Positions 5,512-9,859 of a DNA stretch of 47,358 bases are shown here, one piece after another. The notes beneath the pieces are model-generated. The model did not search any database. It was not told the origin of the DNA and saw nothing but the letters and a program-made list of their open reading frames with translations. A program made the position numbers and the translations under genes. How positions within the stretch are numbered: the stretch's first letter is position 1; each line of letters opens with the position of its first letter. The stretch comes from an uncultured Saprospiraceae bacterium. GTDB lineage: Bacteria; Bacteroidota; Bacteroidia; Chitinophagales; Saprospiraceae. The DNA is taken from positions 1 through 47,358 of the forward strand of contig CALBWK010000055.1 of NCBI GenBank assembly GCA_937969415.1. Reading direction: 5' to 3'.

Positions 5512-5850
5512 ATGAGAGAATCTGATATAAAAATTACAGTCACACTCAATGATAAGAATCAGCCAGTGGAGATGAAGTGGACAGCTGAAGCCCAGGAGGG
5601 TGAAGAGACAAGGCAGTCTAAAGCTATGCTGCTATCGCTATTTGACAAGGAAACCATGGAAACATTTAAAATCGATCTCTGGACTATGGATATGCAAGTA
5701 GGGGAGATGGATAGATTAATGTTTCATACGCTGAGAGCACTGACAGAAACCTACCATAAAGCCACCAAAAATGATGAGTTAGCCAGTCAAATGAAAAGCT
5801 TTGTGGACCATTTTGGTAAATACACCAAGATTATTCCTGAGGTGGAATAA
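5512..5850 (+). CDS. gldC: Gliding motility protein GldC
   Basis: 112 residues, the usual GldC length, with the family's opening DIKITVTLNDKNQPVEMKW and the central SKAMLLSLFDKETMETFKID. It ends in MKSFVDHFGKYTKIIPEVE. GldC is a small cytoplasmic protein that accompanies gliding motility in Bacteroidota; its exact biochemical role is not settled. It follows the TraB-like gene by 11 bases. No other gld gene is nearby. The 180 bases downstream are AT-rich and hold the promoter and operator of the next gene. Confidence 0.9.
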   Translation: MRESDIKITVTLNDKNQPVEMKWTAEAQEGEETRQSKAMLLSLFDKETMETFKIDLWTMDMQVGEMDRLMFHTLRALTETYHKATKNDELASQMKSFVDHFGKYTKIIPEVE

Positions 5851-6002
5851 CGTCATATAGGATATTTTTTAATATACACATTAATATTGTTGGTAAGTTG
5901 TTTATGGTTGTTAAGTCATTGATAATAAGCATTTTATGAGTGAAATTCTAGTTTGTTAACTTGTTAGTTACATATTATAGTTTTTATATATATAATATTT
6001 TC

Positions 6003-6010
6003 TATATTTG
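6003..6010 (+). promoter_or_regulatory. -7 promoter element of the S24 repressor operon
   Basis: TATATTTG at 6003-6010 is an exact TAnnTTTG match, 21 bases before the chosen ATG at 6032. No TTG at the expected -33 spacing is visible, which would fit a regulated promoter. It abuts a palindrome at 6011-6023. Confidence 0.55.
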
Positions 6011-6023
6011 TTCTGTAACAGAA
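6011..6023 (+). promoter_or_regulatory. Candidate operator, perfect 6-1-6 palindrome
   Basis: TTCTGTAACAGAA is a perfect palindrome with one central base. It starts directly after the -7 element and so covers the expected transcription start. A dimeric repressor bound here would block the promoter. The first gene of the operon encodes such a repressor, so autoregulation is a reasonable inference. Confidence 0.5.
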
Positions 6024-6031
6024 TAGACCTC

Positions 6032-6898
6032 ATGCAGAACCAACTAAACGAGCGATTCAAGCAGTCCTTGAATCACCTTAAGACTAATGGCTATTTCCCC
6101 TCAGTAAGACAGTTTTCTAAGACTATCGAGGTGCACCCTCAATGTATAAGTGATATTACAACTGGTAAGCGAGAAGTCAATTTAGACATCTTGAATAAAG
6201 CTATTCAGGCGTATGATCTCAATCCTGAGTACATCTTCTTTGGCGAAGGCCCGATATTAAAGTCTGAAATAAATCAAGTCGAAGAAAATATAGACTCCCC
6301 CATATTGGCTGTTGTAACAGAGCAGTCAGGTAGAGAGCTCATCGTTCATGTCCCTTATGCTGCACAAGCAGGTTATATAGACCAGATGCATGATCAGGAG
6401 TATCTTGGTGAACTACCTAGCTTTAGTTTGCCCGATGCTCGGTTTCAGTATGGGACACATCGCTGCTTTGATGTCGCTGGTGATAGTATGGAGCCAGTAT
6501 TATTTAATGGAGAGCAAGTCATCTGCGAGTTTGTAGAACCTGATGCTTGGCAGAATATTAAAAGTAATTACGTCTACGTTGTAGCGACCACTTCTGGCTT
6601 AGTGGTCAAGCGTATTGAAAATAGAATTAAGAGCGATGGATCGATCATACTTCGATCTGATAACAGCTTTTATGAAGGGGTGAGTCTCGACATAGCTCAG
6701 GTTAAAGAAATCTGGAGAGTCACCTACAAGTTGTCTCCATTCTTAGGCTCACCTAGCAACTTGCGTAATGGATTAAACCAAGAAATGGATAGCCTCCGAA
6801 ATACAATTGCAGGTCAAGGCGAAATGATCCAAAGCCTCAACTCCACAATAGAAAAACTTCTGAGACAAAGTAGAAAGGAAGTTTATTCTGCTAGGTAG
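6032..6898 (+). CDS. LexA/CI-like repressor with S24 self-cleavage domain
   Basis: 288 residues from the ATG at 6032; an upstream in-frame TTG at 6008 overlaps the promoter and was not used. An N-terminal XRE-type helix-turn-helix covers about residues 15-72 (VRQFSKTIEVHPQCISDITT). An S24 domain follows at about 90-232, with an Ala-Gly pair at 113-114 (AQAGY) in the position of the LexA cleavage site, the nucleophile Ser152 in GDSMEP, and the general-base Lys193 in VVKRIENR. A predicted coiled coil fills about 248-285. This architecture fits a repressor that cleaves itself on stress. It leads an operon with two further genes and has a palindromic site at its promoter. Confidence 0.85.
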   Translation: MQNQLNERFKQSLNHLKTNGYFPSVRQFSKTIEVHPQCISDITTGKREVNLDILNKAIQAYDLNPEYIFFGEGPILKSEINQVEENIDSPILAVVTEQSGRELIVHVPYAAQAGYIDQMHDQEYLGELPSFSLPDARFQYGTHRCFDVAGDSMEPVLFNGEQVICEFVEPDAWQNIKSNYVYVVATTSGLVVKRIENRIKSDGSIILRSDNSFYEGVSLDIAQVKEIWRVTYKLSPFLGSPSNLRNGLNQEMDSLRNTIAGQGEMIQSLNSTIEKLLRQSRKEVYSAR

Positions 6899-6904
6899 AT
6901 CAAT

Positions 6905-7129
6905 ATGGTAGTTAAAGTAAACGGTAAAGTCGATTATATAGAACTGGAAGGTGGATTTTGGGGGGTCAAAACAAATAGTGAAAACTATGCACCGATTGAC
7001 TTGCCTGAGCAGCTACAACAAAGTGGAAAGACAATCAACTGTACTGTAGTAGTCCTAGACATAATGACGACACATAACTGGGGTATTCCTTGTAAAATAT
7101 TTTCTTTCACAACTCTAGATGCAGAATAG
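6905..7129 (+). CDS. Small protein of unknown function, probable beta-barrel
   Basis: 74 residues, not assigned to a named family. The sequence alternates short strands (VVKVNGKVDYIELEGGFWGV, then NCTVVVLD, then NWGIPCKIFSF), with a glycine/aromatic turn GGFWG and a PIDLPEQLQQSGK turn. This looks like a small OB-like barrel, a fold seen in widespread short proteins with a similar IELEGGFWG signature; that is memory-based inference. It lies six bases after the S24 repressor gene and overlaps the next gene, so it is part of the operon. Confidence 0.65.
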   Translation: MVVKVNGKVDYIELEGGFWGVKTNSENYAPIDLPEQLQQSGKTINCTVVVLDIMTTHNWGIPCKIFSFTTLDAE

Positions 7130-7730
7130 TATGGAATTTTTAGTGGATATTAATTCAGTAAATAATTCTCACGTTCAGTTTCAGGTGTCTCCTGGAGAAA
7201 TGGTTTACTGTCTTTCTAATGATAACTGTTCTTCAGTTTTGAATGGCCTAGTAAGGAAAGAAGACAATAAGGTTTCTGGCTCTGTTTTGGGCTATGACCT
7301 TAAGGATAAAAGCCCAAAGCAACTAAGAGATCTGAGAGGAGAAATTGGCTTTGTTGATGATGATTTGTATTTGTCAAAAGAGAATACTGTCCTAGAAAAT
7401 TTCGAACTATATTCAGCTGGATTCAGAGAACAGGCAAAGATGCTCAATAGTTTCAATAGACATCTGAGACATTTCGGCATTGACAAATCAGCTCTGGTTG
7501 CTGCCCTTAATCCTCGAGAGATATTTTTCACTAAATTGTCTCTATGTCTAGCTAAAGATCCTCGACTTGTAGTTGTACCCAAGGCCTTTACTTTTTCAAG
7601 TCAATTAGTTTTCAAGCAACAAATGAGTTATATCTATGAGCTCATTATGGATGGCGGCTTGACTTACATTGCAGCAATAAGCAACGAATCCTTGACAGAG
7701 AACTTTCCGGGTCGGGTTGTTACTTTGTAG
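7119..7730 (+). CDS. Degenerate FtsE-like ABC protein (pseudo-ATPase)
   Basis: 203 residues that follow the FtsE/LolD layout but lack catalytic motifs. After the PGEMVYCL strand the Walker A site is SNDNCSSV (33-40), without the GKS/T core. The Q-loop region reads [10 protein letters not shown] (77-86), with no glutamine. TVLENFELY matches the FtsE helix after it. The LSGGQ signature is replaced by [23 protein letters not shown] (142-157) aligns with the Walker B strand but lacks Asp-Glu. The H-loop is AAISNES. The frame is intact, so this is a conserved non-hydrolysing paralogue rather than a fresh pseudogene, by inference. An alternative ATG at 7131 follows the upstream stop directly. The last 11 bases overlap the convergent gene. 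Confidence 0.65.
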
Positions 7731-9834
7731 GCTGGGCTAGGGCTAAGGCCTCTTTTGCATTTTCTACAGGTATTTTACAGACCTTGTTCTGACACACATA
7801 TATCATTGTTGCCCCTTCTACAGATTTATCTTTAAGTAGCGCTAAATTTTCTTCTTTAGTCGTGCCCAGAAAAAGAGAATTACCAAGATAATTGGCCGCT
7901 AGGGCATCACGCTTGCTCATTGCCTCTGCTCCGACAATAGCAATCTCATAAGGACTATAGATTTTATCCAAAAGTAGTTGCAGCCAGTTACTATAGAAAC
8001 TCAGATACTCTGCTTTTTGTAATTGTGGTAACATATTATTGAGCATTTGCTCAGATTTGTCTAAGTAGTCTTTATTGTAGGTTAGTGTCCCTAGCGTAAA
8101 TAGACTTCTAGCCATAGAGGAGTTGGATGCTGGTATCACATTGTCATTGTACTCTGCTTTTTTAGCGACAAGTGGAGGGTCCAACTTGGATGTATAGTCA
8201 AACATTTTGGTTTCACTGTTGTAAAACTGCTCCACACAATAACTGGCTAAGCGCTCTGCTTTCTCTATCCATTGGTGATCTAGTGTTGCTTGATATATTT
8301 TTAGAAATGCGTGAATTGTCAGCGCATAATCATCTAGGAAACCATTGATGCTGGCTTTCCCATTTTTATGATTTCGAAATACTTGGCCATCTTTTTTTAT
8401 TTGATTAGACCATATAAAGTTGGCATTGCTCAGTGCCCTGTCTAAATAAGCTTGCTGACCTAAGGCATCATAAGCATCAAGATAACCAGCCAGCATTAAG
8501 GCATTCCAACTTGTGAGTATTTTATCGTCAGTACCGGGCCTTTCTCTATTGGCTCTATTATTAAAAAGTACTTGCTTTCCATCAGCCAGTATTTGTGTTA
8601 TGTCCTCCTTACTAAGGCTATGTTTTTTGGCAAGTGCTTCTACTGTCTGTACTTGATTGAGTATGGTGACATGTTCCCAGTTTCCAGATTTTTTTACATC
8701 ATAATATTCCTTGAATATATTTTGATGATTTTCATTCGTAATAAGAGATTCAATTTCTTCTTCTGACCATACATAGAATTTTCCTTCTTCTCCTTCACTA
8801 TCGGCATCTAGAGAAGAGTAGAAGCCACTTAGCTTAGACATCAATTCTCTTTCGACAAATTCTATAGTCTCTGTGACTACGTTTTTATACAATGGATTTT
8901 TTGTCAACTTATAGGCCTGTGCATAAATGCTGACCATCTGGCCGTTATCGTACAACATCTTCTCGAAGTGAGGTACTAGCCACTTAGCATCTGTTGAGTA
9001 ACGTGCAAAGCCACCCCCAAGATGATCGTAGATACCACCCATTGCCATCTTATCCAATGCTGTCAAGGTTGTCGATAATGAAGCTTCATCTCCTGTCAAC
9101 CAATGATATTTCATCAGAAATTCATAACTATTGGGCATCGGAAACTTAGGCGCACCTGTACGACCTCCATATTCGGGGTCATATTTAGTAAGGCATTTCC
9201 GTACTATAGACTGCATATCTTCTTTCTTGGCAGAGAATGGATTGGCATTGACTGCTATTAGGTTTGATTCTACAATGCCATCAGTAAGCTGAGCTGCTGA
9301 TTCAGTAAGTTTGTTTGGTTCATCTCTTTTGATTTGAATGAATTGCTCTAAGATTTTCAACCACTGCTCCCTTGGATAATAAGTGCCTGCATATAATGGT
9401 CTACCATCGGGTAGAGCTATAGCATTCAATGGCCACCCTCCATGGCCGCTAATAAGCTGGGCTGCAGTCATATAGACATCATCGACATCAGGTCGCTCTT
9501 CTCTATCCACTTTTATTGGAACAAAATGTTCATTCATTATCTGAGCAACTGTGGAATCTTCAAATGACTCATGCTCCATCACATGGCACCAGTGACAAGC
9601 TGAATAACCTACAGAAATGATCAGCAATTTGTCTTCTTTCTGGGCCTTTTCTAGGGCCTCTTGGCCCCACGGATACCAGTCTACAGGATTATAAGCGTGT
9701 TGCAGTAAATATGGACTGGACTCGTTAATCAATCGATTCGACTTCTTTCCAGCGTGTAAGGTGTTGGATGTTTTTTGGTCGCAACCTGATAGGATTAAGA
9801 TAATTAAGGCGGTAAAAAAGGTGTAAATTTTCAT
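7720..9834 (-). CDS. DUF255/thioredoxin-domain lipoprotein (YyaL/SSP411 family)
   Basis: About 704 residues from the ATG at 9834 (an ATG at 9849 is also in frame). The signal peptide ends in a lipobox, ILSGC, so the protein is probably an exported lipoprotein; most relatives are cytoplasmic. The N-terminal thioredoxin-like domain has the family signature [10 protein letters not shown] with a CxxC-type pair, preceded by [10 protein letters not shown] long (alpha/alpha) barrel follows, with [15 protein letters not shown] and [12 protein letters not shown]. The biochemical role of this family is unsettled. It is convergent with the pseudo-ABC gene, with an 11-base overlap at the 3' ends. Confidence 0.85.
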
Positions 9835-9859
9835 ATTTCTACAATTCATACAAGGAGGG

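Follow-up and report, generated by a model that had tools for sequence, protein, structure and literature searches.

In the current view of the type VII ABC complex FtsEX, hydrolysis of ATP by FtsE drives the transmission of a signal (PMC11627006). In Escherichia coli, a second study describes FtsE variants, K41A and D162A, that are still found at mid-cell and still act on septal synthesis, and reports that activation of hydrolysis requires the FtsE ATPase (PMC10269673). Published accounts also hold points that count against any ATP-free reading of FtsE, namely that inactivating changes in Streptococcus pneumoniae FtsE are not tolerated and that hydrolysis is not restored with E. coli FtsE D162N. 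A literature search by title, made mostly without subscription papers, found no natural ATPase-dead FtsE. A paper on Liberibacter (PMC3885570) reportedly contains the words 'lack ftsE'.

The locus described here lies in a stretch of 47,358 nucleotides (the window) from an uncultured Saprospiraceae bacterium. A preliminary description of this DNA had pointed to three packed genes, for an S24 repressor, a small barrel protein and an ABC protein of FtsE type. The gene order from 5512 to 9849 is GldC-like, HTH-S24 repressor, small protein, ABC protein (the gene is termed ftsE* below) and convergent DUF255, and the features are as follows.

5512..5850, + strand: gldC-like gene, the upstream neighbour (Pfam GldC-like, E 5.7e-27)
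5970..5992, + strand: operator-like element ACATATTA-N6-TTTATATATA, of which ACATATTA is recurrent in S24 upstream regions
6003..6010, + strand: -7-like promoter element TATATTTG, with TAnnTTTG in 24 of 29 S24 upstream regions
6011..6023, strand '.': palindrome TTCTGTaACAGAA, the site singled out earlier, present in 2 of 12 genus genomes
6032..6898, + strand: HTH-S24 repressor gene, 288 amino acids (Pfam Peptidase_S24)
6905..7129, + strand: small OB-like barrel protein gene, its family present in 153 of 298 family genomes
7119..7730, + strand: ftsE*, very probable FtsE ortholog without catalytic motifs, start at 7119 or 7131
7720..9849, - strand: DUF255 (Thioredox_DsbH) gene, convergent (Pfam E 2.5e-66), a neighbour of canonical ftsE in three other genera

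The packing of the three genes and the six-base gap between the S24 and small genes were confirmed; the 11-base overlap of the small and ABC genes exists only if ATG 7119 is used, and ATG 7131, one base past the small-gene stop, is an alternative start. The S24 frame is open from TTG 6008, and the common start in relatives is ATG 6032.

In the window ABC protein, the Walker A motif, the signature, the Walker B Glu, the D-loop and the switch His were not recognisable. Pfam ABC_tran (E 0.016) was matched below its cut-off, as was NCBIfam FtsE (E 7.7e-6); the curated cut-off of NCBIfam TIGR02673 was missed at 25.7 of 264.85 bits, as it was by three canonical relatives (221–250 bits). The gene was found in 11 of the 14 genomes of the window's genus (G000, G001, G003, G005, G006, G007, G008, G009, G010, G011 and G013), and all eleven frames, of about 200 codons, are free of stops, that of G007 being cut by the contig end. 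Ten of the dead proteins were aligned with 12 canonical FtsE and scored at positions conserved in at least 11 of the 12; with cells that are not independent, 43 of 280 (15%) were kept at the catalytic positions (Walker A, signature, Walker B, D-loop and switch His) and 90 of 270 (33%) at the other conserved positions. An AlphaFold2 model of the window's ftsE* product had a mean pLDDT of 80.7, residues 1–16 being poor. The motif alignment, together with the searches that place FtsE nearest, thus bears out the earlier recognition of an FtsE-type ABC protein stripped of its catalytic motifs, and as judged from its sequence the ftsE* product almost certainly cannot hydrolyse ATP.

The ORF at 7119–7730 is very probably the FtsE ortholog of the window's genus, which has no second FtsE copy as far as the searches show. 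Of the 26 relatives outside the genus, 21 scored 282–400 bits with a search profile of 12 canonical Bacteroidota FtsE, and the other five (G017, G019, G021, G037 and G038) had no canonical FtsE at that level. The 14 genus genomes, of which seven are 90% complete or better, yielded no canonical FtsE: their best matches were at 174 bits or less, and the highest other listed match to the profile was 184 bits. Among the relatives outside the genus, G017 (98% complete) and G019 (100%) yielded neither canonical FtsE nor full-length FtsX; other members of G019's genus do have FtsE. When the family was sampled, canonical FtsE passed E 1e-62 in 225 of the 298 genomes, corresponding to 95 of 112 genera, and in none of the six genus members included. 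The intact FtsE-like ATPases of the window's own genome are MacB/LolD-type (L021 and L022) or MlaF-like (L023), and a further one, L024, scored 152.6 bits for FtsE and 149.3 bits for LolD and adjoins its own permease-like gene. It had been suggested that the ABC protein is an extra mimic acting as a brake beside a working FtsE; with no canonical FtsE turning up in any of the 14 genus genomes, that suggestion was rejected.

A reciprocal profile, built from 11 dead proteins, had its best match at the place of canonical ftsE in 100 of the 101 genomes listed in both searches, the comparison covering the best 150 and best 145 matches outside the genus and so favouring the best-scoring genomes. Against PDB sequences, the four best distinct matches of this profile were FtsE (S. 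pneumoniae and Pseudomonas aeruginosa) and the fifth was BceA, and a Foldseek search of the PDB returned FtsE of FtsEX as its top two, narrowly ahead of MetN, YbbA and LolD. NCBIfam FtsE was matched by 8 of the 11 ftsE* members, more than any other family; counting against this, the single strongest NCBIfam match among them by E-value was to DevA (5.3e-16, versus 7.4e-13 for FtsE). A tree was built from 37 proteins, omitting one planned paralogue for which no frame was obtained. A 100/100 branch separated the 14 paralogues in it from the FtsE set of 13 canonical, 8 dead and 2 half-dead proteins; the tree carried long-branch warnings, and the canonical FtsE rows did not form one clade. The tree and the sequence searches place the ABC protein nearer FtsE than LolD, and on the strength of the 100/100 split and the PDB sequence search a grouping with LolD/MacB ATPases, and with it the proposed link to a Lol-type exporter, was discarded. 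With the canonical profile G013 reached only 27.5 bits and G009 was not significantly matched, so orthology in these two genomes depends on position and on a profile of which they are themselves members.

The genomic neighbourhood was also compared. In G023 a convergent DUF255 homologue lies directly against canonical ftsE, on a contig with only the C-terminal part of that homologue; in G064 and G223 the two genes also converge and stand about 1 kb apart. These are three genomes out of 61 ftsE loci, with some genomes entering twice and most loci having only 1.5 kb of flank. The commoner neighbours of canonical ftsE, CcmE (by Pfam) and a gene product that we take to be CcmF, are not shared by ftsE*. 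The original observation is confirmed and its interpretation replaced: this gene most probably encodes an FtsE ortholog that occurs naturally in a catalytically dead form.

FtsX was found by profile in eight genus genomes (G000, G001, G004, G005, G006, G009, G012 and G013), in each case in the order ftsX-DUF3098-uppP-truB, the labels being those given by Pfam for the window's own genome, where FtsX_ECD passes the Pfam cut-off (28.6 of 23.5 bits). The uppP gene was found in 9 of the 14 genomes, and FtsX or an FtsX-position protein was present in 9 of the 9 genus genomes in which the ftsX locus was found, the ninth, G002, by position only. The protein at the ftsX position in G002 (L290, 323–1153) is membrane-like, has 276 residues and gave no Pfam FtsX match. 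Neither FtsX nor uppP was found in G003, G007, G008, G010 and G011 (78–89% complete), the locus being missing from these assemblies. In three FtsX-docking regions of the dead FtsE, mapped by eye from PMC7468199, 49 of 190 cells (26%), again not independent, were kept versus 33% at the other conserved positions, so special conservation of the docking face was not seen. A C-terminal motif was kept in 15 of 20 cells.

The S24 protein matched Pfam Peptidase_S24 (E 1.8e-9), HTH_3 below the cut-off (E 0.0011) and the repressors of PHROG 4 (E 3.1e-19). The Ala-Gly cleavage site, the Ser and the Lys reported earlier were all seen in the window protein, together with an HTH, as in self-cleaving repressors, and AG, Ser and Lys are retained in 30 of the 32 S24 proteins examined. 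The S24 repressors of G010 (L188) and G012 (L193) have neither the Ala-Gly site nor the serine motif GDSM. Neighbourhoods were counted at 29 S24 loci from named genomes: gldC, counted within 700 bases upstream, was present in 17, the small gene in 8 and ftsE* in 8, all eight of the latter within the window's genus. Conversely, S24 lay directly upstream in 26 of 30 small-gene loci fetched. S24 and the OB-like small protein are the older pair, which ftsE* joined only in the window's genus; the fixed three-gene module that had been envisaged gives way, S24 and the small gene being common without ftsE* and several partial sets occurring inside the genus.

The small OB-like family (window 6905–7129) is uncharacterised, with its usual place behind S24. 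No Pfam or NCBIfam match up to E 1 was found for the small gene, and neither it nor the ABC gene had a PADLOC or PHROGs match up to E 0.01, so that an origin from phages or defence systems was rejected for both. The model of the small protein had a pLDDT of 86.8, and its fold search gave OB-type matches (best E 2.5e-3), with no PDB match under E 0.001.

Upstream of S24, the palindrome TTCTGTaACAGAA (6011–6023) starts immediately after TATATTTG (6003–6010) and is the single site in the window with up to 1 mismatch (0.19 expected). The perfect palindrome behind the -7 element is therefore present in the window as first described; a role as a conserved operator was rejected, since, of 12 genus genomes examined, just two have it, the window's own and that of its nearest relative. 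A different element, ACATATTA, was found in 19 of 29 S24 upstream regions versus 0.99 expected and at most 4 in 300 resamplings, the regions being related sequences and so not independent. The promoter-like TAnnTTTG occurred in 24 of these regions versus 3.3 expected, and ACATATTA starts 31–33 bases ahead of it in 15 of its 19 regions. On balance, the likeliest role of S24 is repression of its own promoter through the predicted ACATATTA site. The exact longer form of this candidate operator has one occurrence in the window's own genome, which would speak against a regulon such as that of LexA in the SOS response, and control of the operon by damage is unlikely.

The rate of change of ftsE* was compared with those of FtsX and UppP. 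Identity among genus ftsE* is 18–30% (seven genomes versus the window), and canonical FtsE of four other genera share 48–57%; the values within the genus and between other genera are 21–28% versus 28–35% for FtsX and 55–66% versus 55% for UppP. By this comparison ftsE* is the protein that sped up, FtsX being fast everywhere, in agreement with the solved FtsX (17–39% identity, versus 42–64% for FtsE) in PMC11627006. Such divergence could mark a vestige being lost, with ftsE* temporary and FtsX working alone or losing its role. The same reading would suit G002 (98% complete) and G012 (53%), where S24 and the small gene are present and no ftsE* was found at the locus, and the lack of a Pfam FtsX match at the FtsX position of G002; in these two genomes ftsE* may be dispensable, or may lie elsewhere unseen. 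Against decay stand the eleven open frames, the fold model (mean pLDDT 80.7), and a dN/dS for ftsE* of 0.049 between G000 and G001, similar to that of ftsX (0.072), S24 (0.036), the small gene (0.102) and DUF255 (0.037). These values come from one pair, the two nearest species, with pS about 0.57–0.71 and dS near saturation, so that the low ratio speaks only roughly against a decaying pseudogene; between these two near species ftsE* is, as far as sequence comparison goes, under purifying selection, and we regard progressive loss as rather unlikely.

It is less probable still that ftsE* has left the divisome and been taken over as a partner of S24, for example as a co-repressor or sensor. Its position directly behind S24, or behind S24 and the small gene, in 10 of 11 genomes would fit such a partnership, as would the fact that S24 and ftsE* stay together in four genus genomes from which the barrel gene is gone (G006, G009, G011 and G013). 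However, G008 has ftsE* with neither S24 nor the small gene, the rest of the family has S24 without ftsE*, and FtsX is retained. The reading put forward in the preliminary description, of an additional pseudo-ATPase that S24 cleavage would induce on damage and that would brake FtsEX or a Lol exporter, draws on the widely kept S24 residues, but it has to contend with 14 of 14 genus genomes in which no competing FtsE was found, with an operator-like pattern that occurs once in the genome, and with the S24 motifs missing in G010 and G012; we consider it very improbable.

The explanation preferred here, and thought reasonably probable as a whole, is that ftsE* encodes an ATP-free FtsE ortholog that is a scaffold for FtsX and the divisome and is set by the S24 regulator. 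In outline, an ftsE gene, convergent with DUF255 in some relatives too, would have landed downstream of the older gldC-S24-small-barrel cluster, with loss of the residues that bind and hydrolyse ATP. Its product, presumably keeping the FtsE fold and working free of nucleotide, would dock on the cytoplasmic side of FtsX and tie FtsX to the divisome, which is the ATP-independent part of the work of FtsE. Control of wall hydrolases through FtsX would then take place without an ATP cycle, or be lost, and the amount of ftsE* product would be set by the S24 regulator, autorepressing via the conserved ACATATTA element. Given the ATP-independent roles of E. coli FtsE, it is simplest to suppose that ftsE* has retained the scaffold role, which taken by itself is plausible at slightly short of even chances. 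A strong version of the scaffold is weakened because the docking residues are no better kept and because G002 and G012, without ftsE* at the locus, have FtsX or a protein at its position. The data hint that the division complex of the genus may run without ATP. A more tentative extension, which is somewhat doubtful, is that the whole genus has an ATP-free FtsEX-type complex, with a nucleotide-free scaffold FtsE, an autorepressed S24 operon and an adapted FtsX, and that the family genus g37 stands half way.

Were the preferred explanation true, it would show the scaffolding and energy roles of FtsE separated in nature. The states seen form a ladder, from intact FtsE, through Walker A only (g37) and no motif (the window's genus), to FtsX with no ftsE* seen (G012 and G002). 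There is also a warning here, as profile cut-offs would call such genomes FtsE-less.

The locus can be set beside several known systems. The S24 protein resembles the HTH-S24 (CI/LexA-like) repressors of PHROG 4 in its HTH and S24 domain and in AG, Ser and Lys; in contrast to them it is chromosomal, often linked to gldC, and has a conserved C-terminal extension, and its operator-like pattern is not repeated elsewhere in the genome. With the FtsE of the type VII complex FtsEX, ftsE* has in common that this protein gives its best sequence and fold matches, that DUF255 is convergent in three other genera and that the genus has FtsX at its own locus, whereas the catalytic motifs of ftsE* are gone. 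The half-dead FtsE of g37 (L231, 1983–2693, in G154 and L232, 1836–2546, in G306) are FtsE by profile and tree and have lost the Q-loop Gln, the signature, the catalytic Glu and the switch His; they differ from ftsE* in an intact Walker A and belong to another genus and another locus. The engineered ATPase-dead E. coli FtsE, K41A and D162A, would likewise have no ATP cycle and still reach mid-cell (PMC10269673), while ftsE* differs from them in being natural and genus-wide, with all of the motifs gone.
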